A stretch of 37,889 bases of DNA from Lachnospiraceae bacterium (GTDB taxonomy: Bacteria; Bacillota; Clostridia; Lachnospirales; Lachnospiraceae). Location of the stretch: contig JAEEUS010000017.1 in the NCBI GenBank assembly GCA_016290615.1, positions 1 through 37,889 on the forward strand, written 5' to 3'. Shown here piece by piece: positions 6,936 to 17,992 of this stretch (positions are counted from its first letter, which is position 1; every line of letters begins with the position of its first letter). Position numbers and translations under genes: made by a program. The notes under the pieces are model-generated. The model saw nothing but the letters and a program-made list of their open reading frames with translations. It was not told where the DNA came from and did not search any database.

Positions 6936-6961
6936 ACAAATGTTCGTGCGAGGTGAAATTG

Positions 6962-7453
6962 ATGGATGATTACAACAAAGGTTCCCATTCCGTATATAAG
7001 CTCACATATCATATCATATTCGTTACAAAATACCGGAAGAGAGTGATCACGGATGAGATCGGTGATTTCCTGAAGGATATGGCTGATTATCTGTGTAACC
7101 GAATGAACTGCACGCTTATATCTGCCGAGACAGATGAGGATCATATGCATCTGCTTGTATCGATGCCTCCCGATGTTGCCCCGGTAAGACTCATCAACAT
7201 GGTCAAGACGCAGCTTTCCAAGGAAGTGCGAGCCAACTATACCGAGCATGTTGAAAGATATCTGTGGAAGGATTCTTTTTGGAGTGCAAGTTATTTTTGT
7301 GCTACTACGGGATCTGTTTCTATGGATACCGTGAGATCATATATCGAAGGACAACGTACCGACGAACACAAACGAAAATATGTCAGATCAGGAAAGTACA
7401 AAAAAGCGATTCATCCCGCAGCTGACATGCGTCGGAAGGGGTTTTCTCGCTGA
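6962..7453 (+). CDS. tnpA: IS200/IS605 Y1-type transposase TnpA
   Basis: Single-strand transposase of about 163 aa that recognises hairpin ends and cuts with one tyrosine. The HUH motif is seen in DEDHMHLLVSMP and the catalytic tyrosine in RSYIEGQRT. The N-terminus VYKLTYHIIFVTKYRKRV is characteristic. ATG 6962 is chosen (GAGGTG seven bases upstream) over an in-frame GTG at 6953. The 3' end of the gene overlaps the element's end hairpin, so the last residues are dictated by the terminal palindrome. Both catalytic motifs are present and the frame is intact, so the element may still be active. Confidence 0.92.
   Translation: MDDYNKGSHSVYKLTYHIIFVTKYRKRVITDEIGDFLKDMADYLCNRMNCTLISAETDEDHMHLLVSMPPDVAPVRLINMVKTQLSKEVRANYTEHVERYLWKDSFWSASYFCATTGSVSMDTVRSYIEGQRTDEHKRKYVRSGKYKKAIHPAADMRRKGFSR
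7405..7452. repeat. IS left-end hairpin (tnpA side)
   Basis: CCCGCAGCTGAC-ATGC-GTCGGAAGGGG forms an imperfect hairpin at the 3' end of tnpA. On the minus strand it shares GAAA-ACCCC-TCCGAC with the opposite end of the element. Confidence 0.6.
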
Positions 7454-7459
7454 GGTATT

Positions 7460-7485
7460 ATAAGGATCGCTTATCACTGACGATC
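7460..7485 (+). promoter_or_regulatory. CmbR-like CYS-box A (metY unit)
   Basis: Tripartite site: [TT]ATA, nine bases, TATCA, four bases, CGATC. The first two parts form a dyad ATAAG-N5-CTTAT, i.e. the T-N11-A signature of LysR regulators. It matches, from memory, the streptococcal CYS-box TGATA-N9-TATCA-N(2-4)-TGATA. The same design with the same spacing occurs at 9945 and 13977. It ends 12 bases before the -35 box, the right place for an activator. Confidence 0.7.
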
Positions 7486-7497
7486 GAAACGATCAAA

Positions 7498-7526
7498 TTT
7501 TCAAAACTGAATATCGATGCTATGAT
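7498..7526 (+). promoter_or_regulatory. Promoter of the metY leader
   Basis: TTTTCA (7498-7503), 17-bp spacer, TATGAT (7521-7526). The weak -35 suits an activator-dependent promoter. TTATCAC of the CYS-box begins exactly 27 bases before the -35, the same as in the other two sulfur promoters. Confidence 0.65.
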
Positions 7527-7567
7527 AAGACCATCAAAGCAAGCAACTCACGAAGGAGGAAACACAG

Positions 7568-7672
7568 ATGAAAAATATGATGTGTACATGTATGAATATT
7601 CGAATGCTTAACCCCCGGGTGTGTAACACGGCTTGCTGTCCGGCTCATTTGTCGGATGAACGGATCAGATGA
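7568..7672 (+). CDS. Cys/Met-rich leader peptide A (attenuator peptide of metY)
   Basis: A 34-codon ORF with an excellent ribosome-binding site (GAAGGAGG, 8 bases upstream). It has five Cys codons (positions 6, 8, 19, 23, 24) and five Met codons, and begins MKNMMCTCMNIRM. It sits between a promoter and an intrinsic terminator (7701-7729), the classic position of an attenuator peptide. The Cys codons 6 and 8 end 20 bases before a CCCCGGG segment (7613-7619) that can pair with the terminator's 5' arm CCCGGGG (7704-7710). Two related leaders lie at 10045 and 14074, sharing the nucleotide stretch CGAATG-TTAA--CCCGG with this one in whole or part. The product itself probably has no function beyond being translated. 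Confidence 0.8.
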   Translation: MKNMMCTCMNIRMLNPRVCNTACCPAHLSDERIR

Positions 7673-7700
7673 TCTGTCATTTCAGATAGTTGATCAGCCG

Positions 7701-7729
7701 ATGCCCGGGGAACTACCCGGGCATTTTTT
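7701..7729 (+). terminator. Attenuator terminator A
   Basis: Nine-pair stem ATGCCCGGG/CCCGGGCAT with a GAACTA loop and a six-T tail. It lies between the leader peptide and metY (start 7795), so it must be bypassed for metY expression. Confidence 0.85.
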
Positions 7730-7794
7730 ACTGCCCATAACTAAAGAATAAAGATAAACGAAAATGAGATTTGATCAAAAAGGAGAATATAAAA

Positions 7795-9078
7795 ATGAGC
7801 GATTACAGATTTGAAACTTTACAGATACACGTAGGACAGGAAGATGCAGATCCTTCAACAGATTCAAGAGCGGTTCCGATATACCAGACAACATCATACG
7901 TATTCCATGACAGCAAGGATGCCGCAGACCGCTTCAGTCTTTCAGCAGGCGGAAACGTATACGGAAGAATAACAAACACAACACAGGACGTGCTTGAAAA
8001 GAGACTGGCTTCTCTTGAAGGCGGAAGCGCAGCACTCGCAGTTGCAACAGGTGCCGCAGCGATAAGCTATACGATCGAGGCACTCGCACCAAACGGCGGA
8101 CACGTTGTTGCACAGAAGACAATCTACGGCGGAAGCTTCAATCTGCTTTCTCACACACTTCCTCAATACGGAATTGAGACAACATTTGTTGATGCACATA
8201 ATTTGAGCGAAGTTGAAAATGCCATAAAGGACAACACAAGGGTCGTATATCTTGAGACACTCGGTAATCCCGGAAGCGACATCCCCGATATCGATGCCAT
8301 CGCTGAGATAGCTCATAAGAGAGGCATACCTGTAGTTGTTGACAACACGTTTGGAACACCCTATCTTATCAAGCCATTTGAACACGGTGCAGACATAGTG
8401 GTTCATTCAGCAACAAAGTTTATCGGCGGACACGGAACGACTCTCGGAGGAATAATAATAGAGTCAGGCAAGTTTGATTTTAAGGCAGGAAACAGATTCC
8501 CTCATATCACAGAGCCCAACCCCAGCTACCACGGACTGTCATTTTATGATGCACTCGGTCCTGCAGCATTCGTAACATATATCCGCACGATCCTGCTTCG
8601 TGATACGGGTGCGAGCATCTCACCGTTTAATGCATTCCTTCTTTTACAGGGAGTAGAGACACTCTCACTCAGACTAGAGCGTCATGCATACAACACAAAG
8701 AAGGTCGTTGAATATCTTTCAAACCATCCTCTTGTTGAGAAGGTAAATCACCCGGCTGTTGCAGATCATCCCGATCACGAGCTTTACAAGAGATTCTTCC
8801 CAAACGGCGGAGCATCTATATTCACATTTGATATAAAGGGTGGCCAGGAAGAGGCATGGAAGTTCATCGACAACCTAAAGATCTTCTCTCTTCTTGCAAA
8901 CGTAGCCGATGTAAAGAGCCTTGTCATCCATCCCGCATCAACCACTCATTCACAGTTATCGGGCAAGGATCTTTTGGATACAGGCATCAAGCCGAACACC
9001 ATAAGACTCTCTATCGGTACAGAACACATCGATGACATCATCGCGGACCTTGAAAACGGTTTCGCTGCAATAAGTTAA
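7795..9078 (+). CDS. metY: O-acetylhomoserine sulfhydrylase (homocysteine synthase)
   Basis: PLP enzyme that condenses O-acetylhomoserine with sulfide to make homocysteine, assimilating sulfide directly on the methionine route. The product is 427 aa, the length typical of MetY and longer than MetB-type paralogues. Start 7795 has AAGGAG upstream; an upstream TTG frame start (7771) has none. PLP lysine K208 is in [11 protein letters not shown]. Other family signatures are [35 protein letters not shown] and the [18 protein letters not shown] region. It is expressed behind leader peptide A and terminator A. The companion mccB paralogue (14269) is shorter and lacks the MetY-specific insertions. 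Confidence 0.93.
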
Positions 9079-9082
9079 CTAG

Positions 9083-9103
9083 TGGCAGGGCAATGCCCTG
9101 CCA
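9083..9103. terminator. GC-rich hairpin after metY without T-run
   Basis: TGGCAGGG-CAATG-CCCTGCCA between metY and the hydrolase gene. No T-run follows on either strand, so it is more likely a processing or stability element, or a leaky terminator, than a full terminator. Confidence 0.4.
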
Positions 9104-9125
9104 TATCTGATAAAAGAGGTAAGTT

Positions 9126-9965
9126 ATGAAAGCTGAAAACGCATTTGTTGAATTTGAAACTGAGGAAGCTGATTCGTTTCCGGAGATATTTGAACTGAAT
9201 ATAGTAAGCGGCGGATGCCATATCTACGGCTACCTGCTTGCACCCGACAAGAGAATAGAAGGTCCCTACCCCACAGTCATAATGTCTCACGGATTTCCGG
9301 GCTATACAACAAACAACGATCTGGAACTGGCTCTCATGAGAACGGGCTGCGTTGTGATACATCTTAACCACAGGGGCGCCTGGGGAAGTGACGGAGAGTA
9401 TCTGTTCACAAATCTAAAGGATGATCTTATCGCGATAGCAAAGTGGGCTCATAATCCCGCGATAGCCGATCAATACGGTATTGATACAGACAACATTTTT
9501 CTTGTCGGACATTCGATGGGAGGTCAGACCGTACTCAATGCGGCAAAGGATCTTAAATTCATCAAAGGCGTTGCAGCACTTGCTCCTTATGACATAGGAG
9601 CGGCATTCCGCTACAGGATGGAAAAGGATCTCTTTCTTATGATAGAGACAGAAGGACAGTGCCTTAAGATGAATTCTGCAAGCGAGGTCTATGAAAATGC
9701 TCTTATCAACCAGCAGACGTTAAGCATTTTAAACAGATACGAAGAGCTTTCAAAACACAACGTTTTACTGGTAGAGGCAAGCCTTGATGCGGTAGCACCG
9801 CCCGACAAGATGATAAAGCCTCTTGCCGACAAGCTTAAAAGCCTTGATACAAACCTGACATACAGATCGATCAAGAGCTCTCACAGCTTTATAGGTCAGA
9901 GAATGACTCTGACAAGGATCGTCGGAGAATGGATAGAAAGTGTAATAAGCGATACTTATCACTAA
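9126..9965 (+). CDS. Alpha/beta hydrolase of unknown substrate
   Basis: A 279-aa cytoplasmic serine hydrolase fold. Visible are an oxyanion-side HGFPGYTT motif, NHRGAWGS, the nucleophile elbow VGHSMGGQ, a likely acid in EASLDAVAPPDK and a likely histidine in KSSHSFIGQR. It follows metY by 47 bp with a moderate ribosome-binding site and is probably co-transcribed. Its 3' end overlaps the CYS-box of the metQ unit. The family includes esterases, acyltransferase-like enzymes and peptidases. A homoserine acetyltransferase role would suit the neighbour, but the sequence is not of the MetX type, so the substrate is left open. Confidence 0.85.
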   Translation: MKAENAFVEFETEEADSFPEIFELNIVSGGCHIYGYLLAPDKRIEGPYPTVIMSHGFPGYTTNNDLELALMRTGCVVIHLNHRGAWGSDGEYLFTNLKDDLIAIAKWAHNPAIADQYGIDTDNIFLVGHSMGGQTVLNAAKDLKFIKGVAALAPYDIGAAFRYRMEKDLFLMIETEGQCLKMNSASEVYENALINQQTLSILNRYEELSKHNVLLVEASLDAVAPPDKMIKPLADKLKSLDTNLTYRSIKSSHSFIGQRMTLTRIVGEWIESVISDTYH

Positions 9966-9970
9966 CGATA
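9945..9970 (+). promoter_or_regulatory. CmbR-like CYS-box B (metQ unit)
   Basis: [TA]ATA, nine bases, TATCA, four bases, CGATA, with the dyad ATAAG-N5-CTTAT. It is located in the last codons of the hydrolase gene and ends 12 bases before the -35 box, exactly as in boxes A and C. Confidence 0.7.
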
Positions 9971-9982
9971 AAACCAAACGAA

Positions 9983-10011
9983 TTTTCAAATCGTGTCACA
10001 CATGATATGCT
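9983..10011 (+). promoter_or_regulatory. Promoter of the metQ leader
   Basis: TTTTCA (9983-9988), 17-bp spacer, TATGCT (10006-10011). A palindrome TGATATG-CT-CATATCA (10003-10018) overlaps the -10 box and is absent from the other two promoters. Confidence 0.65.
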
Positions 10012-10044
10012 CATATCAGATAAAAAAACAAGGAGGAAAACATT

Positions 10045-10155
10045 ATGAAGTCAATAAAGATGTGTATGTACTGTATACGAATGTTTAACTCCCGGGAAGT
10101 ATCAAATCCCAGGGCGCATGCCTATGCCATGCCTCCTGAATACGGACGATGTTGA
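10045..10155 (+). CDS. Cys/Met-rich leader peptide B (attenuator peptide of metQ)
   Basis: A 36-codon ORF with AGGAGG upstream. Cys codons are at positions 7, 10 and 36 and Met codons at 1, 6, 8, 13 and 29; the core reads KMCMYCIRMFNSRE. Its DNA matches leader A over CGAATG-TTAAC--CCGGG. Codon 10 (Cys) ends 15 bases before CTCCCGGG (10089-10096), which is complementary over eight bases to the terminator 5' arm CCCGGGAG (10178-10185). The last codon before the stop is also Cys (CGA TGT TGA), a feature shared with leader C. Confidence 0.8.
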   Translation: MKSIKMCMYCIRMFNSREVSNPRAHAYAMPPEYGRC

Positions 10156-10177
10156 CGTAAAGAATTTGACTATTACC

Positions 10178-10210
10178 CCCGGGAGATCTGAAAGTCACCC
10201 GGGTATTTTT
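10178..10210 (+). terminator. Attenuator terminator B
   Basis: CCCGGG-A-GA pairs with TC-A-CCCGGG (one internal mismatch, eight-base loop), followed by TATTTTT. It precedes metQ (start 10257). Confidence 0.75.
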
Positions 10211-10256
10211 ATACCCAAAATACAATAATACACAGTTAAAAAGGAGAAAAACTATT

Positions 10257-11129
10257 ATGAAAAAGATAACAAAGATAATCACAGCAGCACTTGCACTCAC
10301 ACTTACATTTTCACTTACAGCTTGCGGAGGTGCAGCTAAGAAAGAGATAAAGACAGACGCAGTTACTACAGATCAGACTAAGACAGAAGCACCTGCGCAG
10401 AACACGGTTATAAAGGTTGGAGCAAACATCACACCTCACTCAGAGATACTCGAGCAGGCAAAGCCTCTTCTTGAAGCAAAGGGAATCACACTTGAGATCG
10501 TAAAGCTTGAGGATTCGATCACACCCAACACCGGTGTTATAGAAGGAAGCCTTGATGCAAACTACTTCCAGCACGTACCTTACCTTGAGCAGTTCAACAA
10601 GGAAAACGGTTCTGATCTTGTTTCAATAGGCGCCATCCACTATGAGCCCTTCGGAGTATATGCAGGCAAGACAACAGATCTTTCAGCACTGCCTGATAAA
10701 GCACTCGTAGCAGTACCCAACAACGTAACAAACGAAGCAAGAGCACTTCTGCTCCTTGCACAGGAAGGCATAATCAAGCTTAAGGACGATGCAGGCATCA
10801 ACGCAACCGTTGAGGATATCGTAGAGAATCCCAAGAACATCGAGTTTAAGGAACTTGCTCCCGAACAGCTCGTTGCAGCTCTTCCCGATGTGGATGTAGC
10901 AGTAATAAACGGCAACTATGCAATAGAGGGCGGACTTCATGTAAGCCAGGCACTCGCAGTAGAGGCTAATGACGGTCTGGCTGCAAAGACTTACGGAAAC
11001 ATCATCGCTACGAGCAAGGACAAGGAAAACGATGAGGCATTAAAGGTTCTCGTTGAGGTTCTTCAGAGTGAAGATATCAGCAAATATATCAATGATACAT
11101 ATGACGGAGCAGTAGTACCGCTCAACTGA
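10257..11129 (+). CDS. metQ: MetQ-type substrate-binding lipoprotein (NLPA family)
   Basis: Methionine (or cystine-related) binding lipoprotein of an ABC importer, 290 aa. The signal peptide ends in a lipobox LTAC with lipid-modified C23, followed by a linker rich in Thr and Lys. The mature part begins VIKVGANITPHSEILEQAKPLL and continues YFQHVPYLEQFN, the NLPA/MetQ pattern. AAGGAG precedes the start. The matching ATPase and permease (metN, metI) lie 6 kb downstream in another unit with its own copy of the same attenuator. The transporter is therefore split but apparently co-regulated. Cysteine-rich leader codons raise the possibility that the ligand includes cystine or another sulfur compound. 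Confidence 0.92.
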   Translation: MKKITKIITAALALTLTFSLTACGGAAKKEIKTDAVTTDQTKTEAPAQNTVIKVGANITPHSEILEQAKPLLEAKGITLEIVKLEDSITPNTGVIEGSLDANYFQHVPYLEQFNKENGSDLVSIGAIHYEPFGVYAGKTTDLSALPDKALVAVPNNVTNEARALLLLAQEGIIKLKDDAGINATVEDIVENPKNIEFKELAPEQLVAALPDVDVAVINGNYAIEGGLHVSQALAVEANDGLAAKTYGNIIATSKDKENDEALKVLVEVLQSEDISKYINDTYDGAVVPLN

Positions 11130-11139
11130 GGATAAAAAG

Positions 11140-12303
11140 ATGATTGGATTTGAATATTACAATCCGGCAAAGATAGTGTTCGGAGAGGACAGTGAAAAGA
11201 AACTTAAAGGCTTACTCGAAAATTTAAATGTAAGATCCCTGCTTTTGGTATACAGCGGAGACTTTATAAAGAGCCTTGGCATATATCAGGTGATAAAGGA
11301 TGCAGTGGATGAACTGGGAATAAGCTTTTTTGAAAACGGGAACGTTGTTCCAAATCCTACTATAGAGCTTGTAAGAGAGCTTGTGGATCTGGGTAAGAAT
11401 AACAATGTTGATTTTGTACTTGCTGTGGGCGGCGGCAGCTCGATCGACACAGCAAAGGCAATTGCGCTGGGTATACCTTATTCGGGTGATGTATGGGACT
11501 TCTTTGAAAAAGGAGTCTCACCCGAAAGGGTCCTACCTGTCGGTGTTATCGCAACGACTGCATCGAGCGGATCGGAAACGAGCAACTGTGCGATACTCTC
11601 AAGCAAAGAATGGAAGCTTGGATTTGAGGATGACAGGATAATACCCAAGTTTGCGATCATGAATCCAAAGTTTACGGTCAATCTTCCCCCGTATCAGACA
11701 TACGCAGGTATAGCCGATGTACTGTCACATCTTTTAGAGAGATACTTTTCGGATGAGAAATATTCGGATACAACAGACTATCTTATCGAAGGAGCCATCA
11801 GAGCACTTCTTGTAAATGCAGACAGACTGATAATCGATCCCAAGGATGTGAATGCAAGAGGAGAGATACAGTGGTTGGCAAGCGTCGCACACAATAATTT
11901 CCTCGATGCCGGCAGACGCGCCGACTGGGGAAGCCACAGGATAGAGCATGAACTTTCCGCTCAGTACAACATTACACACGGGGAGGGAATGGCAGTTGTA
12001 ACGATCGCATGGATCAGGTATGTGGCAAATGTAAAGCCCTGGAGACTCGCACTTTTGGCAAGCAGGGTATTTAATGCAGACTCATATGACTATTCCGAAC
12101 AGGAAAGAGCACTCATACTCGCAGACAAATTAACGCTCTTCTTTAAAAAGCTCGGATTAAAGACAACACTTTTAGAGCTGGGAATAGATGAAAGCGACTT
12201 TGATGTAATGGCAAAGAGAGCAACAAGAAACGGCCCGGTTGGTCATTACGAACCTCTTGATGAAGAAGCATTCAAACAGGTACTTAAACTGGCACTTAAA
12301 TAG
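11140..12303 (+). CDS. Iron-containing (group III) alcohol dehydrogenase
   Basis: A 387-aa NAD(P)-dependent dehydrogenase related to butanol dehydrogenase. The nucleotide-binding motif VGGGSSIDTAKAIA is present, with likely metal ligands in the DVLSHLLERYF and NFLDAGRR..HRIEHELSAQYNITHGEGMA region. The N-terminus FEYYNPAKIVFGED is characteristic. It starts 10 bases after metQ and so is in the same transcript behind leader B. An alcohol/aldehyde enzyme in a methionine-uptake operon is unexpected. It might act on an aldehyde from sulfur amino-acid breakdown (for example methional), but nothing in the sequence decides this. Confidence 0.88.
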   Translation: MIGFEYYNPAKIVFGEDSEKKLKGLLENLNVRSLLLVYSGDFIKSLGIYQVIKDAVDELGISFFENGNVVPNPTIELVRELVDLGKNNNVDFVLAVGGGSSIDTAKAIALGIPYSGDVWDFFEKGVSPERVLPVGVIATTASSGSETSNCAILSSKEWKLGFEDDRIIPKFAIMNPKFTVNLPPYQTYAGIADVLSHLLERYFSDEKYSDTTDYLIEGAIRALLVNADRLIIDPKDVNARGEIQWLASVAHNNFLDAGRRADWGSHRIEHELSAQYNITHGEGMAVVTIAWIRYVANVKPWRLALLASRVFNADSYDYSEQERALILADKLTLFFKKLGLKTTLLELGIDESDFDVMAKRATRNGPVGHYEPLDEEAFKQVLKLALK

Positions 12304-12327
12304 TCTATAAATGAAAGGAACAAAGAA

Positions 12328-12882
12328 ATGGCAAGGGTAAATCTTAAACAACCAAATGAACTTACAGGTGAAGCAAGAAAGGCATATGAAGAGCTTGAGG
12401 CAGCAGGCAAGGTAACAAACATGAAGCTTGTTATGCTTCAGGACTACGGAACATACAAGGCATTCATGGGCTGGTATGACTCATGGGGCAGTCTGGTAAA
12501 GGTAGTGGGAGATCGTGCCGCAACGATCTATGCACACTCTGTTTCCACAACAAACGGATGCCAGCTGTGCTCACTTTTCTTTATAAGCGATCTTAAGGAG
12601 CTTGGTCTTGACCCCAACAACTTCGAGACATCTGAAAACGAGAAACTCCTTCAGCAGCTCGGCCAGCAGATCGTAAAGGATCCCACAAAGGTTTCAGACG
12701 AACTCCTAAACGGACTGAGAAAGTTCTATACTGATGAAGAGATCATTGTAATCGTAGGATTCGGTGCACAGATGCAGGCAACAAACAACTTCAACTCAGT
12801 TCTGGGAGTAGATGTTGACAAGAGACTGCTTCCTTTGAAGGATCAGTTCAAACCCGCAACATGGAGAGATGTCCTCGCTTAA
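12328..12882 (+). CDS. Carboxymuconolactone decarboxylase/AhpD-like protein
   Basis: A 184-aa protein with the AhpD-type redox motif, seen as TTNGCQLCSLFFISDL (C-x-x-C). Members of this fold are thiol peroxidase partners or small decarboxylases. AAAGGAAC precedes the start. It is the third gene of the metQ unit, ending 10 bases before the tRNA-like sequence and its terminator. The CxxC pair suggests a thiol-redox role, plausible in a cysteine-responsive operon (inference). Confidence 0.8.
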   Translation: MARVNLKQPNELTGEARKAYEELEAAGKVTNMKLVMLQDYGTYKAFMGWYDSWGSLVKVVGDRAATIYAHSVSTTNGCQLCSLFFISDLKELGLDPNNFETSENEKLLQQLGQQIVKDPTKVSDELLNGLRKFYTDEEIIVIVGFGAQMQATNNFNSVLGVDVDKRLLPLKDQFKPATWRDVLA

Positions 12883-12892
12883 GAAAATAAAT

Positions 12893-12962
12893 GATGCTGT
12901 AGCCGCAGGAATGGCATAGGTTTCATAGACCGAAGTTGCCGGTTCGAGTCCGGTCAGCATTA
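12893..12962 (+). tRNA. tRNA-like sequence, anticodon CAT (Met-type), atypical
   Basis: A 70-base cloverleaf can be drawn: acceptor GATGCTG/CAGCATT (first pair G-U); D stem GCCG/TGGC with a six-base loop containing GG; anticodon stem TAGGT/ACCGA with one A-G mismatch and loop TTCATAG (anticodon CAT); T arm GCCGG-TTCGAGT-CCGGT. No CCA is encoded. The short D loop, missing A14 and stem mismatch are unusual. It could be a true tRNA-Met, a decayed copy, or a tRNA mimic in the 3' end of the metQ transcript. Confidence 0.5.
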
Positions 12963-12964
12963 GT

Positions 12965-13005
12965 AAAGAGCTGTAACCCATATCAGGGTTTCAGCTCTTT
13001 TATAT
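12965..13005 (+). terminator. Terminator after the metQ unit/tRNA-like sequence
   Basis: AAAGAGCTG pairs with CAGCTCTTT (12965-12973 with 12992-13000); an inner ACCC/GGGT stem caps it. TTTTATATTT follows. It may also serve the convergent minus-strand genes. Confidence 0.85.
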
Positions 13006-13090
13006 TTATAATGCATAAGTAAAAATTCATACATCACCGGTTCGCAGTTCAAGGACAACTTCAGATGCTCTATACCAGTAATGCGAACCA

Positions 13091-13336
13091 TCATTGAGGA
13101 TTTTCACTTGGTGCAAATAATTCTCTGAATTCATTTCTGCCGGGAACCCATGCTTTTTCGTAAATATGTGTAAAATGATTTTTTACGGTTTGTTCTGAAA
13201 TCCCAAACATATATGCAATTCTTCTGTTTGAAAAACCGCACACCTTCAAAAAGCCCAGTTCCAGCTCGCGTTTTGTAAGGCCGAATTTCTGAGCAATTTT
13301 GAGATATTGGTCTTTTGTGATTTCAGATTGTGTCAT
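13091..13336 (-). CDS. Small LuxR-type HTH protein
   Basis: An 81-aa protein that is almost entirely a LuxR/GerE DNA-binding domain (residues 18-75: FGLTKRELELGFLKVCGFSNRR, then FGISEQTVKNHFTHIYEKAWV). No receiver or sensor domain is present. Its start overlaps the stop of the upstream membrane gene by four bases, so the two are translationally coupled. It probably controls its own unit or a neighbour, possibly in response to the membrane protein. The target is unknown. Confidence 0.8.
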   Translation of the reverse strand: MTQSEITKDQYLKIAQKFGLTKRELELGFLKVCGFSNRRIAYMFGISEQTVKNHFTHIYEKAWVPGRNEFRELFAPSENPQ

Positions 13337-13803
13337 TCACCCATGTCCATTTCTTCATTCATCTTGCGCTCTGCATTCAGTCTGAGCGGCAGAAGCAAAA
13401 ACTCAATAATAACAGCATAGAATCCTGAAAGAAAGCACACTGCCAGGTTAGGCCCCATCATAGAAGAATCAAGTCTGCCCATTATCAGCACACCGGATAT
13501 AATGATCGCAAAGAGAGCTCCACATACGGTGAGTTTCTGTGCTGCATCCACGGCTTCAATTATGTTTTTTAGCTGTAACAGACTAAACGGCTTAATCCCG
13601 ACTGAAAATGCATTTATGAAATCTTTCCATGCTCCCATGATGGCTATTCCCGGAAATAAAATAAATGCTATTAACAATAATGAAGGCAGATCAAGAAACC
13701 AGGTGATGGCAGATAATCCCCAGTTTCCTAAAAAGATATTAATCAAAAATATCCCTAAGAACAATAAAAGCTCACCAAGTAATACTAATCTGATATTTTT
13801 CAT
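13333..13803 (-). CDS. Four-TM membrane protein resembling MotA/ExbB-type channels
   Basis: A 156-aa integral membrane protein. Hydrophobic segments lie at about residues 5-26, 32-58, 91-109 and 120-141. The segment FLDLPSLLLIAFILFPG recalls the first part of MotA. The C-terminal MGPNLAVCFLSGFYAVIIEFLLLPL recalls its third and fourth helices, including conserved prolines (P118, P139). It is much shorter than a flagellar MotA and no MotB-like gene is near. Coupling to a LuxR-type HTH gene suggests a membrane sensor and regulator pair (inference). It lies on the strand opposite the sulfur units, back to back with the mccB promoter. Confidence 0.7.
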   Translation of the reverse strand: MKNIRLVLLGELLLFLGIFLINIFLGNWGLSAITWFLDLPSLLLIAFILFPGIAIMGAWKDFINAFSVGIKPFSLLQLKNIIEAVDAAQKLTVCGALFAIIISGVLIMGRLDSSMMGPNLAVCFLSGFYAVIIEFLLLPLRLNAERKMNEEMDMGE

Positions 13804-13976
13804 GGCATTTCCTTTCTACTGTAAATTGTTATATCTACTTTGACTTTATCACGGATGTATATGATATTATATAGTACCTTTTTAGGAAAAAGAATATCAT
13901 TGCAACACTCAGTCGAACCCGCAGTTTTTGAAAAGGGACTGTTTTATTGATAGAGAACAAATGAAAAATATCGCTG

Positions 13977-14004
13977 CGATAAGAGAGGATTATCACCAGC
14001 GATC
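13977..14004 (+). promoter_or_regulatory. CmbR-like CYS-box C (mccB unit)
   Basis: CGATA, nine bases, TATCA, four bases, CGATC; inner dyad ATAA-N7-TTAT. It ends 12 bases before the -35 box as in boxes A and B. This is the best match of the three to the TGATA half-site. Confidence 0.7.
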
Positions 14005-14016
14005 AGATCGATATAA

Positions 14017-14045
14017 TTTATAAATCACTCATCCGGTGATAAGAT
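14017..14045 (+). promoter_or_regulatory. Promoter of the mccB leader
   Basis: TTTATA (14017-14022), 17-bp spacer, TAAGAT (14040-14045). TTATCAC of the CYS-box starts exactly 27 bases before the -35, as at 7498 and 9983. Confidence 0.6.
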
Positions 14046-14073
14046 ATTAACAGCAAAAGCAAGGAGTAATATC

Positions 14074-14196
14074 ATGAGAACATTTAACATGAACAACACA
14101 ACATGTATGTGCTGTCGAATCATCGTATCCCGGAGAGCCACGACGGATAGGACGCTTCGTAATGCTTGCATGCGCTCCTTTTCAGATCGATGTTGA
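14074..14196 (+). CDS. Cys/Met-rich leader peptide C (attenuator peptide of mccB)
   Basis: A 40-codon ORF with AAGGAG upstream. Cys codons are at 11, 13, 14, 32 and 40 and Met codons at 1, 6, 12 and 33; the core reads TTCMCCRIIVSRR. Codon 14 (Cys) ends 13 bases before ATCCCGG (14129-14135), which is complementary over seven bases to the terminator 5' arm CCGGGAT (14213-14219). The ORF ends CGA TGT TGA like leader B. The nucleotides around CGAAT and CCCGG align with the other two leaders, so the three are evidently related copies. Confidence 0.78.
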   Translation: MRTFNMNNTTCMCCRIIVSRRATTDRTLRNACMRSFSDRC

Positions 14197-14210
14197 TGAT
14201 TGAGTCACCG

Positions 14211-14245
14211 GCCCGGGATCATTAAGACCCCGGGCTTTATTTAAT
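14211..14245 (+). terminator. Attenuator terminator C
   Basis: GCCCGGG-A-TC pairs with GA-C-CCCGGGC (one mismatch, ATTAA loop) followed by a TTTATTT tail. It lies between leader C and mccB (start 14269). Confidence 0.75.
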
Positions 14246-14268: not shown

Positions 14269-15429
14269 ATGAGCATAAAGATAAATTCATTACTTATACA
14301 CGGAGGAACAGACGGCGATGTTACAACCGGAGCCGTAAATGTTCCGATCTACCAGACAACAACATATAAACAGGACGGCCTCGGAGAAAACAGAGGCTGG
14401 GAATATTCAAGAACCGGAAACCCGACAAGAGATGCAGCGGAAAAGCTGGTAGCAGATCTTGAACAGGGTAAATACGGACTCGGATTCGCATCCGGTCTTG
14501 CAGCGATCAACACAGTACTTTCTCTTTTTGAAGCCGGAGACAGACTGGTCGTTTCAGACAACATCTACGGAGGCACATTCAGGATACTTGATAACGTATT
14601 CAACAAATTCGGTATCACATATACGATAGTCGATACTTCAGATCTTAAGAAGGTCGAAGAAGCAATAGACGATGATGTAAAGGCTGTCTATGTTGAAAGC
14701 CCCGCCAATCCTCTTCTTACCGTAACGGATATACAGGCGGTTGCAGAGATTGCTCACAAGCATGACAAGCTTTTGATCGTAGACAACACATTTTTAACAC
14801 CATACCTTCAGAGACCTCTTACACTCGGGGCAGATATAGTGATACACAGCGGCACAAAATACTTAGGCGGCCACAGCGATGTCATTTCCGGATTCGTAGT
14901 AGTTAACGATGATGCTCTGGCAGATAAGCTCTACTATCTTCAGAATGCCATCGGAGGAATACTCGCTCCCTGGGACAGCTTCCTTGTGATCAGAGGAATA
15001 AAGACTCTCGGAGTAAGAATGGACCGCCATGTTGATAATGCATCTAAGGTGGCAAAGTGGCTGACAGAAAGCGGATATGTGAGCAAGGTCTATTATCCGG
15101 GACTTGAATCTGACCCCGGATACGAAGTACAGAAGAAACAGGCAGACGGTGCAGGAGCGATGATATCATTCGTCCTTGATGAAAAATATGATTATCGAAA
15201 GTTTTTCAAGAATCTTAAACTGATCATACTTGCAGAAAGCCTAGGCGGAGTCGAGTCTCTTGTATGCCATCCCGCAAGCATGACACATGCAGCGATCCCT
15301 GCAGACATAAGAAAGGAAGTAGGTATTGTTGATGAACTGATCAGATTTTCCGTAGGCATCGAAGATGTGGATGATCTGATAAGTGATCTTGAACAGGCGA
15401 TAGTTAACTCATCAAAGGAGGAAAACTGA
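14269..15429 (+). CDS. mccB: Cystathionine gamma-lyase/synthase family enzyme (MccB-like)
   Basis: PLP enzyme of the Cys/Met metabolism family, 386 aa. With the adjacent mccA it most likely forms the reverse transsulfuration pair, which makes cysteine from homocysteine through cystathionine. PLP lysine K197 is in HSGTKYLGGHSD. Other signatures are YSRTGNPTRDAAEKL, VDNTFLTPYLQRP and ESLGGVESLVCHPASMTHA. Sequence alone cannot separate gamma-lyase from gamma-synthase; the neighbour decides the call. It is controlled through CYS-box C and leader C. mccA follows with a one-base gap. Confidence 0.88.
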   Translation: MSIKINSLLIHGGTDGDVTTGAVNVPIYQTTTYKQDGLGENRGWEYSRTGNPTRDAAEKLVADLEQGKYGLGFASGLAAINTVLSLFEAGDRLVVSDNIYGGTFRILDNVFNKFGITYTIVDTSDLKKVEEAIDDDVKAVYVESPANPLLTVTDIQAVAEIAHKHDKLLIVDNTFLTPYLQRPLTLGADIVIHSGTKYLGGHSDVISGFVVVNDDALADKLYYLQNAIGGILAPWDSFLVIRGIKTLGVRMDRHVDNASKVAKWLTESGYVSKVYYPGLESDPGYEVQKKQADGAGAMISFVLDEKYDYRKFFKNLKLIILAESLGGVESLVCHPASMTHAAIPADIRKEVGIVDELIRFSVGIEDVDDLISDLEQAIVNSSKEEN

Positions 15430-15430
15430 T

Positions 15431-16339
15431 ATGGATGTATATATGAGCATACAGGAAATGATAGGACACACTCCCATTATCAAATTAAATCACCTGGGAG
15501 TAAAGGAAAGCGTAGGACTGTATGCAAAGCTTGAACTTATGAATCCGGCCGGAAGCGTAAAGGACCGTGTCGGTGTATATATGGTAAAGGACGCGGAGGA
15601 AAGAGGACTGTTAAAGCCCGGTTCAACGATTATAGAGGCAACTGCGGGAAATACCGGCATAGGTATTGCCATCGCTGCCCTTAACAGAGGCTACAGGGTC
15701 ATCTTTACGGTACCTGAGAAGTTTTCTATAGAAAAGCAGAAGATAATGTCTGCACTGGGTGCGGAGATAGTCCATACCTCAAGAGAAGAGGGAATGCTTG
15801 GAGCAGAGAACAAGGCAAGACAGCTGCTTGAAACTATCCCCGATTCCATAACACTTGCCCAGTTCAGAAATCCCGCCAATCCTCTTGCGCACTACGAGAC
15901 CACAGGACCCGAGATCTATGATCAGATGGACGGACAGATTAACTACCTCGTTGCGGGAGCCGGAAGCGGCGGAACGTTTTCAGGCATCATGAAGCACTTA
16001 AAGGAAAAGGATACAAGCATTCAGGGAGTGCTCGCTGATCCGATCGGCTCGATCATAGGAGGCGGAGAACACGCAGACTATGACATAGAAGGCATAGGAA
16101 ATGATTTCATCGCCGATACGATGGATGTCTCATTCATCGATAAGGTAATAAAGATAAATGATGACGAAGCCTTTGAGGCATCAAGGCTGTTAGCCAAAAA
16201 GGAAGGCATACTTGCAGGCTCGTCATCAGGAGCTGCTCTTGCTGCATCGCTTAAGCTTGCCGATCAGATTGAGAGCGGAAACATTGTAGTGGTATTTCCC
16301 GACAGGGGAGACAGATACTTAAGTAAAGGACTTTTTTGA
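15431..16339 (+). CDS. mccA: Cystathionine beta-synthase/cysteine synthase-like enzyme (MccA-like)
   Basis: Fold-type II PLP enzyme, 302 aa. PLP lysine K44 is in NPAGSVKDRVG, and the phosphate-binding loop is AGAGSGGTFSG. The stretch YDIEGIGNDFIADTMD recalls B. subtilis MccA, an O-acetylserine-dependent cystathionine synthase, and the N-terminal motif MIGHTPIIKLN is shared by the family. AAGGAGG lies just before the start, in the end of mccB. O-acetylserine sulfhydrylase (CysK) is the alternative; pairing with mccB favours MccA. metN follows one base after the stop. Confidence 0.88.
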   Translation: MDVYMSIQEMIGHTPIIKLNHLGVKESVGLYAKLELMNPAGSVKDRVGVYMVKDAEERGLLKPGSTIIEATAGNTGIGIAIAALNRGYRVIFTVPEKFSIEKQKIMSALGAEIVHTSREEGMLGAENKARQLLETIPDSITLAQFRNPANPLAHYETTGPEIYDQMDGQINYLVAGAGSGGTFSGIMKHLKEKDTSIQGVLADPIGSIIGGGEHADYDIEGIGNDFIADTMDVSFIDKVIKINDDEAFEASRLLAKKEGILAGSSSGAALAASLKLADQIESGNIVVVFPDRGDRYLSKGLF

Positions 16340-16340
16340 T

Positions 16341-17345
16341 ATGGCTGAGGTTTTTAAACTTGATCATGTTTATAAGAATTTCAAAAATGACGGAAAGGAG
16401 TTTTTAGCTCTTGAAGACGTTTCTCTTTCGATCAATGAAGGAGAGATATTCGGCATCATAGGAATGAGCGGTGCCGGAAAGTCGACTCTTGTAAGGACCC
16501 TAAACCGCCTTGAGGATGTAACGGACGGAAAGGTAAGCTTCTATGACAAGAACCTTGCAGATCTTAAGGCAACCGAACTAAGACTTGTCAGGCGCCAGAT
16601 AGCGATGATATTTCAAAGCTTTAACCTTCTTGGACAGAGAAGCGTTCTAAGCAATGTGATGCAGCCTTTAAGGATAGCGGGAGTTCCCAGGTCACAAAGG
16701 AAGGAAAAGGCTCTTGAGATGCTAAGAGTCGTAGGGCTTGAGGATAAGAAGAACGAATATCCGGCAAGACTTTCGGGAGGCCAGCGCCAGAGAGTAGCCA
16801 TTGCAAGAGCTCTTGCTGCAGACCCGAAGGTACTGCTTTGTGACGAGGCAACGAGTGCACTTGACCCAAAGATGACGGGAGAGATACTCGATCTTTTAAA
16901 GACCATAAACGAGACAAGAAAGCTCACGATCGTTATCATCACTCATGAGATGAGTGTCGTCGAAAAGATATGCGACCGTGTAGCCATCATTGATAAGGGA
17001 AAGCTTGCAGAGCTTGGAGAGGTAAAGGAGATATTCAGAAATCCCCAGTCAGAGCCTGCAAGAAAACTCGTATTTCCGAGCAATCCTTTCGATCCTTCCG
17101 GGAATGATTCAAAACTCATCAGGATCGTATTTGACGGACTTGACGCAAACAGACCCTTTATTGCGGATCTGGTTGAAAAGACGGGCAGAAAGGTAAACAT
17201 ACTTAGCGCCAATACAAAGAGCGTGGGAGGCATAGGATACGGTCAGATGGTCCTTGAGCTTCCAAAGGATGAGACGCAGCAGAAAGAGATAATAAAGTTC
17301 TTTAGAGACGGAGGACTGTCTGTTCAGGAGGTGACAGCGCCATGA
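16341..17345 (+). CDS. metN: MetN, ATPase of a methionine-type ABC importer
   Basis: A 334-aa ATPase. The Walker A motif is GMSGAGKST (41-49), the signature LSGGQRQRVAIARAL, and Walker B KVLLCDEATSALDP with the catalytic Glu. A C-terminal NIL-type ligand-binding domain (about 260-334) allosterically inhibits transport in characterised MetN proteins when methionine is plentiful. Its stop overlaps the metI start by four bases. The binding protein metQ is in a separate unit (10257). Confidence 0.94.
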   Translation: MAEVFKLDHVYKNFKNDGKEFLALEDVSLSINEGEIFGIIGMSGAGKSTLVRTLNRLEDVTDGKVSFYDKNLADLKATELRLVRRQIAMIFQSFNLLGQRSVLSNVMQPLRIAGVPRSQRKEKALEMLRVVGLEDKKNEYPARLSGGQRQRVAIARALAADPKVLLCDEATSALDPKMTGEILDLLKTINETRKLTIVIITHEMSVVEKICDRVAIIDKGKLAELGEVKEIFRNPQSEPARKLVFPSNPFDPSGNDSKLIRIVFDGLDANRPFIADLVEKTGRKVNILSANTKSVGGIGYGQMVLELPKDETQQKEIIKFFRDGGLSVQEVTAP

Positions 17346-17992
17346 GTGAATATATCATCGAAGCTATAAGAAACGGAATATTTGAAACACTCACGATGAC
17401 ATTCTTTGCATCGATCCTTGCATATCTGGTAGGACTGCCTCTGGGCATAGTTTTATATGCAACGGCAAAAGATCGGATACTCTCAAACAGAGGAGTAAAC
17501 TTTAGTGTAGGGCTTATCGTTAACATATCAAGATCACTGCCCTTTCTGATCCTGCTAGTTCTTCTGATACCATTTACGCGGCTTGTTACCGGTTCTTCGA
17601 TCGGAACAACGGCAAGCATCGTCCCTCTTACAGTCGGTGCCATTCCGATCGTTGCCCGCATGGTCGAGTCGTCACTTAGCGAGGTTTCCCCCAGTATCAT
17701 AGAGGCTGCCACATCAATGGGTGCTTCTCCTTTATACATAATCACGCACTTTATTTTGCCTGAGGCAACACCCTCCCTTCTTCTGGGAGCAGCCATAAAC
17801 ATAGCCACTGTACTGGGCTATTCAGCCATGGCCGGAGTAATAGGCGGAGGCGGACTGGGTGCCATCGCACTGCAGTACGGATATTACAGATATCAGAAGG
17901 AAGTTCTGTGGACGACAGTCACCATACTTGTCATCATGGTAATGGTGATCCAGGAGAGCGGAAACGTCATCGCCAAGAAAGTCAGAAAGTAG
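17342..17992 (+). CDS. metI: MetI, permease of a methionine-type ABC importer
   Basis: A 216-aa inner-membrane permease with five or more hydrophobic segments. It carries the EAA-type coupling motif seen as IIEAATSMGASPLYIITHFILPEA, and the end AGVIGGGGLGAIALQYGYYRYQ is typical of MetI. It is the last gene of the mccB unit. No separate terminator follows; the gdhA leader hairpin lies about 55 bases downstream. Confidence 0.94.
   Translation: MSEYIIEAIRNGIFETLTMTFFASILAYLVGLPLGIVLYATAKDRILSNRGVNFSVGLIVNISRSLPFLILLVLLIPFTRLVTGSSIGTTASIVPLTVGAIPIVARMVESSLSEVSPSIIEAATSMGASPLYIITHFILPEATPSLLLGAAINIATVLGYSAMAGVIGGGGLGAIALQYGYYRYQKEVLWTTVTILVIMVMVIQESGNVIAKKVRK

Follow-up and report, generated by a model that had tools for sequence, protein, structure and literature searches.

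Which signal controls the sulfur genes on contig JAEEUS010000017.1 of a Lachnospiraceae bacterium, and how is it read? The stretch analysed, called the window here, is the forward strand of this contig over 37,889 nucleotides (nt). In it, three short open reading frames (ORFs) rich in cysteine (Cys) and methionine (Met) codons precede metY, metQ and an mccB-like operon, and an earlier interpretation made from the letters alone, the sequence-only reading, had regarded them as related leader peptides that attenuate a dispersed sulfur regulon. Our analysis supports that proposal at the sequence level, by homology, frame, antiterminator and downstream genes. We consider it highly probable that each leader is a ribosome-mediated transcription attenuator reading the supply of charged tRNA-Cys. 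This view rests on the ORF, its frame and codons, the mutually exclusive structures, their spacing and the genes downstream; ribosome stalling, tRNA-Cys as the signal and read-through are what we infer.

Three leader ORFs in the window

The leader peptides below were recognised by ORF reading, by comparison with relatives and by a covariance model, R1, trained on relatives only. Modules were located in the sequence, as were terminators 2 and 3; terminator 1 came from a hairpin scan.

7568..7672, + strand: leader peptide 1 (metY leader), MKNMMCTCMNIRMLNPRVCNTACCPAHLSDERIR
7601..7606, + strand: CGA-ATG module of leader 1, with CGAAT 13 nt before CCCGG
7613..7622, + strand: putative antiterminator 5' strand CCCCGGGTGT of leader 1, 10 of 10 pairs with 7701-7710, G-U included
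7700..7730, + strand: intrinsic terminator 1
10045..10155, + strand: leader peptide 2 (metQ leader), MKSIKMCMYCIRMFNSREVSNPRAHAYAMPPEYGRC
10080..10085, + strand: CGA-ATG module of leader 2
10091..10098, + strand: putative antiterminator 5' strand CTCCCGGG of leader 2, 8 of 8 pairs with 10178-10185
10178..10210, + strand: intrinsic terminator 2
14074..14196, + strand: leader peptide 3 (mccB leader), MRTFNMNNTTCMCCRIIVSRRATTDRTLRNACMRSFSDRC
14116..14121, + strand: CGA-ATC replacing CGA-ATG in leader 3
14127..14133, + strand: putative antiterminator 5' strand ATCCCGG of leader 3, pairing with CCGGGAT at 14213-14219 (scored as 7 of 8 pairs when one extra base is included)
14211..14242, + strand: intrinsic terminator 3

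The three ORFs comprise 34, 36 and 40 codons, each behind a Shine-Dalgarno (SD) sequence of the AGGAGG/AGGAG type. They contain 5, 3 and 5 Cys codons and 5, 5 and 4 Met codons (start Met counted), as the sequence-only reading had counted, and each does lie before an intrinsic terminator. Against the codon usage of 24 window genes, the Cys counts depart from chance at P = 2.7e-5, 6.4e-3 and 6.2e-5, and the Met counts more weakly, at P = 9e-3, 1.1e-2 and 7.3e-2. The nucleotide blocks said to be shared were recovered in part: CGAAT and CCCGG are common to all three leaders, 13 nt apart (8 nt between), whereas TGTATGT occurs in leaders 2 and 3 only, leader 1 having TGTATGA. A CCCGGG-loop-CCCGGG hairpin with a T run follows all three, and a simple terminator scan with a loop limit of 8 detected terminator 1 only. 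The pattern TGTATGN{5,11}CGAATN{5,12}CCCGG gave 3 matches in the bacterium's own genome (2.9 Mb, 165 contigs; reversed control, 0) and 4 in the other 97 genomes, one of which, in G008, is a true leader (reversed control, 3), so that the pattern alone is a weak, poor discriminator.

Among 20 genomes of the genus (own included), the metY leader is present in G008, as the same peptide, and in G014, as a homologous one; the metQ leader is present in G008 and the mccB leader in G014. In these near relatives the core Cys codons are retained and the Met codons are partly altered (metQ CMYC/CRCC, mccB CMCC/CTCC). The contig with the G008 metQ leader lacks both the terminator and the metQ start, either by deletion or by an assembly fault. 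A nucleotide search of 299 family genomes with leader 1 recovered, besides its own sequence, ten short matches, including one to the operator part in G098.

Conservation of the leader at metY loci

A MetY search provided 80 related metY loci, 80-99% identical and mostly labelled Lachnospiraceae, some of which (e.g. L086, L088 and L112) coincide with loci of order family f8; the nearest named contig was a rumen Lachnospiraceae metagenome-assembled genome. A leader of 22 to about 50 codons, mostly of the form M-C-C-R-M-x-x-S-R-A, was found upstream of metY at 37 of these loci. To avoid circularity, we defined an unbiased set with no codon criterion, as terminators whose 5' arm has a strong upstream complement. 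By this definition 31 of the 80 loci qualified; six leaders (L095, L096, L107, L113, L146, L147) stood outside, where the terminator test failed or a stronger upstream terminator was chosen. In all 31, an SD-started ORF runs uninterrupted across the core in one shared frame (1/31 and 0/31 for the other frames), CGA-ATG precedes the complement in one fixed register, and at least one Cys codon is found among the four codons before CGA-ATG. ORF frame, Cys codons and terminator are thus conserved in relatives that carry the leader, one of the two conditions on which the sequence-only reading had staked its proposal.

Some loci carry related features of other kinds. L125 has a Cys-rich upstream ORF (uORF; NWCMCCCMMCLC) and a terminator before metY, without the CGA-AUG core or an antiterminator helix. 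Related uORFs with a GRM motif occur at L017, L018, L215, L216 and L228; those of L017 and L018 end GRMCSRSRC and GRMCRCCCC immediately before metY, with no terminator, and may exert the same kind of control at the level of translation.

A predicted antiterminator that excludes the terminator

The segment just after the core, CUCCCGGGCA in most leaders, can pair with UGCCCGGGAG, the terminator 5' arm, to form the helix P1, with ten of ten pairs in 51 of the 60 leaders examined. The exceptions are L101, L103, L117 and L151 (P1 absent or altered), L167 (9/10), the window metQ and mccB leaders (8/8 and 7/8), the G008 metQ leader (terminator missing) and the G014 mccB leader (a spurious site; P1 forms on refolding). 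Compensatory variants of P1 were seen in L086 and L099 (CU/AG for CA/UG), L096 (GAAC/GUUC) and L093. Alignment A2 contains 45 of the 60 leaders; excluded were the window leaders and their orthologs (six), L101, L103, L117 and L151 (no usual P1), L095, L164, L165 and L167, and L156 as a duplicate. P1 is fully paired in 45/45 aligned leaders. Two inner helices, P2 and P3 (AUGGC/GCCAU and GGGGCG/CGCCUC), constrain the sequence, and the peptide accordingly reads M-A-G-A-F and R-L. P1, P2 and P3 together are paired at 91.4%, as compared with 31-52% when slid by 1-3 columns; these percentages lean high, because the 3' arm was chosen by complementarity and P2/P3 by eye. The covariation score was 0.142, versus 0.057-0.078 in slid versions and 0.110 in shuffles (0/500), with 20 double-changed cells versus 7.3 in shuffles. 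The predicted antiterminator is therefore supported by conservation and some covariation.

Cysteine, methionine and CGA codons of the core

Cys accounts for 47.5% of the five final codons of the core, versus 2/410 upstream (56 leaders). At the two codons before CGA, TGT was used 44 times and TGC once, while TGC is the commoner codon in the 24 window genes (65 vs 33). CGA itself is rare in those genes (5/368 Arg codons) and yet occurs in 31/31 unbiased leaders; it may be a pacing codon. In weaker family members CGA is replaced by TGC, CTT, AGC or TGG, or the next codon is changed.

The sequence-only reading had also suggested that the ribosome senses Met together with Cys. By this alternative, Met codons ahead of the Cys codons and interspersed with them would also stall the ribosome upstream of the switch point. 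A Met precedes the Cys run in 30/31 unbiased leaders, 23 directly and 7 with a single intervening W, Y or F, as compared with 14/286 residues elsewhere, and Met makes up 28.1% of the five final core codons versus 24/410 (5.9%) upstream (56 leaders). Its position varies with how long the Cys run is, and it is therefore unlike a fixed RNA element; several cores alternate Met and Cys (e.g. MCMCMC in L190 and L197, also L195), and the target genes include those for Met synthesis and uptake. Moreover, stalls at the Met positions leave P1 free in the folding model described below. However, the core Met varies among near relatives while Cys is constant, the G014 mccB leader has a core without Met, and the Met after CGA sits where a stall would half-block P1 (0.44). 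Two near relatives alone make Met sensing look refuted, whereas the wider set shows the enrichment. The earlier suggestion thus stands as to Met enrichment beside the Cys run and falters on the Met changes between the closest relatives, where Cys stays. We regard Met co-sensing beside Cys as plausible, and give bivalent stalling itself somewhat less than an even chance.

Ribosome position and the switch

How a stalled ribosome would affect the switch was assessed by masked folding, assuming a 12-nt footprint ahead of the A-site codon. With the A site no further along than the codon that precedes CGA, P1 had a mean probability of 0.96 (n=52); this fell to 0.77 at CGA and to 0.44 at the next AUG, and beyond AUG it is 0 by construction. 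These 52 include the G014 mccB leader with a misplaced arm, for which P1 forms on separate refolding. At equilibrium, the terminator 5' arm pairs downstream with a probability of 0.18 when the ribosome is stalled before CGA, as compared with 0.79 when it is at the stop (n=51). In 53/53 leaders measured, the leader stop ends at least 9 nt before the terminator 5' arm. In this model the stall position decides the structure, with antitermination flipping to termination just past the Cys codons.

We propose the following mechanism for Cys-dependent attenuation. RNA polymerase would transcribe the short leader, in which the control codons (Cys, with adjoining Met) run up to the near-fixed CGA-AUG or finish a few codons upstream of it. 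Under a shortage of Cys-tRNA, the ribosome would stall while a Cys codon occupies its A site, and its footprint would stop short of CUCCCGGGCA, leaving this segment free to pair with the terminator 5' arm as P1. Assisted by the inner helices P2 and P3, P1 would block the terminator, allowing transcription of the sulfur genes. When Cys-tRNA is plentiful, the ribosome would advance over the antiterminator strands and halt at least 9 nt before the terminator arm; with the ribosome past the core, the terminator would form and transcription would end. A palindrome near the promoter (see below) may provide a second layer, and the binding of a LysR-type factor to it is a guess.

Several observations weigh against this interpretation. 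Without a ribosome, P1 still forms (mean 0.90, n=51), and no protector hairpin winning in that state was seen; translation would therefore be what permits termination, and failure of initiation would give read-through. A protector hairpin that gives termination without translation is common in attenuators but not universal. Slid controls of the alignment hold 14-18 double-changed cells, nearly matching the 20 observed, so that the weight is carried by the paired share and the covariation score; of the three helices, RNAalifold unaided returned just P1, and its covariation term was small (-0.34). No individual Cys codon is as well conserved as the CGA-AUG module. The module also keeps a constant spacing to P1, whereas the gap from Cys to CGA is 0, 3 and 9 nt in the window leaders, and a pure Cys-codon model therefore falls short. 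A full leader is lacking at 43/80 related metY loci, and L101, L103 and L089 retain, upstream of metY, a uORF with Cys and R-M but have neither P1 nor a terminator. Finally, some R1 matches lie before genes without an obvious link to sulfur, including cyclase, M20 peptidase, LysR, glutathione S-transferase (GST)-like and pyruvate formate-lyase-like genes.

The near-invariance of C-R-M, and the constant distance of the CGA codon and of R-M from P1, could also reflect arrest by the nascent chain M-C-C-R-M, perhaps with free cysteine or a metal ligand, followed by the same RNA switch. We think this improbable: weaker members, namely L101, L103, L117, L209, L212, L214, L219, L229 and the window mccB leader, exchange R for C, L, S, W or Q, or M for T, I or K, one Cys is replaced by W, Y or F in several leaders, the window metY core has an M-N-I insertion, and a stall at AUG would cover half of P1. 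A further alternative takes the conserved RNA to be bound by a protein or ligand, the ORF being incidental. In its favour, CGAAUG is conserved at the nucleotide level and finds a 6-bp partner between the P1 arms in 24/51 leaders (mean of 9.5 for shuffled hexamers, 1/200 of which reached the observed count). Against it, the frame is kept in 31/31 despite varied sequence and start distance, the leaders scanned gave no Rfam match, and the Cys codons would be needless; we find this alternative very hard to credit. A role of CGAAUG as a helix strand is at most a partial account, because just those 24 leaders have the partner.

Range of the family and its target genes

R1 scored window leaders 1, 2 and 3 at 43.1, 32.0 and 31.9 bits. 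In the whole own genome at E<=0.01 it found these three and no fourth place, using filters that may lose weak matches. At the same threshold, matches occurred in 54/397 family genomes (own included) and 50/334 genera, a few of them chance hits; at E<=0.001, 19/295 order genomes matched, 12 of which belong to two further families (f8 and f17). Searched as an exact pattern, CGAATG-N5-CTCCCGGGCA was present in 16/397 family genomes, and its reversed control in none. A leader was seen at 10/10 order-scan loci inspected, 8 before metY, 1 before a MetQ-like gene and 1 before a permease-like gene. The search for leader and terminator before metY, metQ and mccB homologues across Lachnospiraceae, which the sequence-only reading had recommended, did reveal a family, at the 37 metY loci and in the 54 genomes. 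The claimed three-copy family is related as stated, but the window trio is better described as divergent, outlying members of an order-wide family.

The R1 family scan gave 72 rows, of which 65 were inspected, the rest being the three window leaders, two already-seen loci and two opposite-strand rows. Of these 65 matches, 51 precede metY, mccB, MetQ or other amino-acid binding proteins, metN, cysK or amino-acid permeases, as assigned by BLAST to window proteins (46), Pfam (1) or resemblance (4). The targets were 27 metY-type, 5 mccB, 1 cysK and 2 metN genes, 11 with a MetQ-like match (2 plain MetQ and 9 longer chains), 4 assigned by resemblance (3 additional binding proteins and a permease), and 1 permease by Pfam. 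Another 14 were other or unclear; four low-scoring ones (L225, L226, L231, L232) had no convincing leader and are likely chance. The downstream genes thus mostly serve sulfur amino acid synthesis and uptake.

Binding proteins seemingly fusing SBP_bac_3 and MetQ/NlpA domains stand behind the leader at L182, L185, L187, L190, L192, L195, L197, L202 and L209, the domain pair being confirmed by Pfam for L182 only. GST-like proteins, an unexpected target, follow Cys/Met leaders at L205, L217 and L220 (L217 by Pfam GST_C_2, the others by resemblance).

Genes and upstream elements in the window

The sulfur genes that the sequence-only reading had placed downstream were identified by TIGR, Pfam and NCBIfam matches. 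Behind leader 3, the genes for a cystathionine gamma-lyase/synthase and a cysK-like enzyme form an operon with metN and metI.

7771..9078, + strand: metY, O-acetylhomoserine sulfhydrylase (TIGR01326, 607.6 bits, cut-off 495.1)
10257..11129, + strand: metQ, NlpA-type methionine-binding lipoprotein (PF03180, 272.7 bits)
14269..15429, + strand: mccB-like cystathionine gamma-lyase/synthase (PF01053; best NCBIfam PRK07671, 549.5 bits, below the cut-off of 594)
15431..16339, + strand: mccA/cysK-like pyridoxal phosphate enzyme (PF00291; TIGR01136, 343.9 bits, cut-off 344.15)
16341..17345, + strand: metN-like ATP-binding cassette ATPase (best NCBIfam TIGR02314, below cut-off; ABC_tran and NIL domains)
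17342..17992, + strand: metI (NF008049, 227.3 bits, cut-off 212)
7460..7484, + strand: operator-like palindrome ATAAG-N5-CTTATCAC..CGAT upstream of leader 1
9945..9969, + strand: operator-like palindrome upstream of leader 2
13979..14003, + strand: operator-like palindrome upstream of leader 3
7498..7526, + strand: candidate promoter of leader 1, -35 TTTTCA and extended -10 TATGAT (consensus scan)

The palindromes emerged from an alignment of the three promoter regions, in which ATAAG-N5/6-TTATCAC-N3-CGAT is common to all. GATAAG-N4/6-TTATC-like palindromes were found upstream of 17/80 related metY loci and in 0/80 control coding stretches, with a search pattern that requires A/G before ATAA and hence misses the window site at 7460-7484. 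They occur at 14/43 metY loci without a leader and 3/37 with one, and in G016 and G009 the palindrome before metY is kept with no leader seen. DNA-level and leader control look partly alternative, because the palindrome is mostly at leaderless metY loci. Candidate promoter sites in the consensus scan were no more numerous than in shuffles.

An IS200-type transposase (PF01797, window 6953-7453) lies directly upstream of leader 1, and G008 has a different sequence there. A tRNA-Met(CAU) gene (window 12892-12963; 45.2 bits, the third lowest of 64 in the genome) stands before the mccB leader, as does a tRNA-Met at the same place in G014 (L054:122-191). As a general companion of the mccB leader, tRNA-Met was rejected: among 100 scanned loci it recurs in G014 only. 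In the same 100 loci, a tRNA-Ala lies close to one other leader, L172. At G000:C9:11007-12809, about 19 tRNA genes, many low-scoring, are packed into about 1.8 kb in a phage-like style.

Relation to known systems

Attenuators of the trp, his, thr and ilv operons combine an SD-started leader ORF, clustered control codons, an intrinsic terminator and an exclusive antiterminator. The same features were found here, as an SD-preceded leader ORF kept in frame, control codons, and a terminator with a predicted exclusive antiterminator. The present leaders differ in their Cys (and Met) codons, their Lachnospirales-type hosts, the near-fixed CGA-AUG module, the lack of a protector hairpin winning without translation, and the presence of one family at many dispersed sulfur loci. 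S-box and T-box elements likewise control transcription of Firmicutes sulfur genes. Neither a S-adenosylmethionine (SAM) riboswitch (RF00162) nor a T-box (RF00230) was found at the gathering threshold in the window, at 20/80 metY loci or at 19 other leader loci. The genome's only SAM riboswitch match (G000:C39:1690-1787) precedes a metK-like gene, named by eye, and three T-box matches, one over the cut-off, lie elsewhere in the genome.

The polycysteine uORFs of mycobacteria described by Canestrari et al. in 2020 are reportedly leaderless, in contrast to the leaders here, which have an SD sequence and a 5' untranslated region. Actinobacterial leaders likewise carry Cys codons within a short ORF upstream of sulfur genes; in the study PMC1262725, their Cys run lies close to the stop and a terminator hairpin was not found, unlike the SD sequence, intrinsic terminator and predicted antiterminator here. 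PMC8632094 describes uORFC-8-2 before cysS in Rhodobacterales, with tandem Cys codons usually at positions 14-15, a terminator-like U run and proposed attenuation, all of which resemble our leaders; it differs, by description rather than by sequence comparison, in its phylum, its restriction to cysS and its dominant UGC. A His leader before hisZ/hisS of Firmicutes (PMC2965389) and a Leu-rich leader of S. aureus (PMC5794164) are also classical leader peptides, with a different amino acid and different genes.

Six leader peptides gave no match in NCBIfam, and in Pfam only two weak sub-cut-off matches, both to leader 2 and taken as chance; for the loci and peptides scanned, no Rfam, Pfam or NCBIfam entry of weight covers the family. 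Among the matches listed in a search of open-licence papers, no recognised Cys/Met leader attenuator in Lachnospiraceae or other Firmicutes appeared. The leader family is thus undescribed in the databases and literature searched, the mode of attenuation itself being known.

Significance

Sulfur amino acid control in the host's phylum is thought to be the task of T-boxes and riboswitches. The attenuators proposed here would add a sulfur amino acid to those read by classical leader peptides, and R1 would provide a searchable model for this regulon in gut and rumen bacteria. We also put forward, tentatively and with more doubt than conviction, a bivalent sulfur attenuator, in which interleaved Cys and Met codons would read both supplies, CGA would pace the ribosome at the switch point, and one order-wide sulfur-starvation switch would serve synthesis and uptake genes in common. 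Dual Cys/Met sensing and the CGA-AUG module would thereby become testable by codon swaps.

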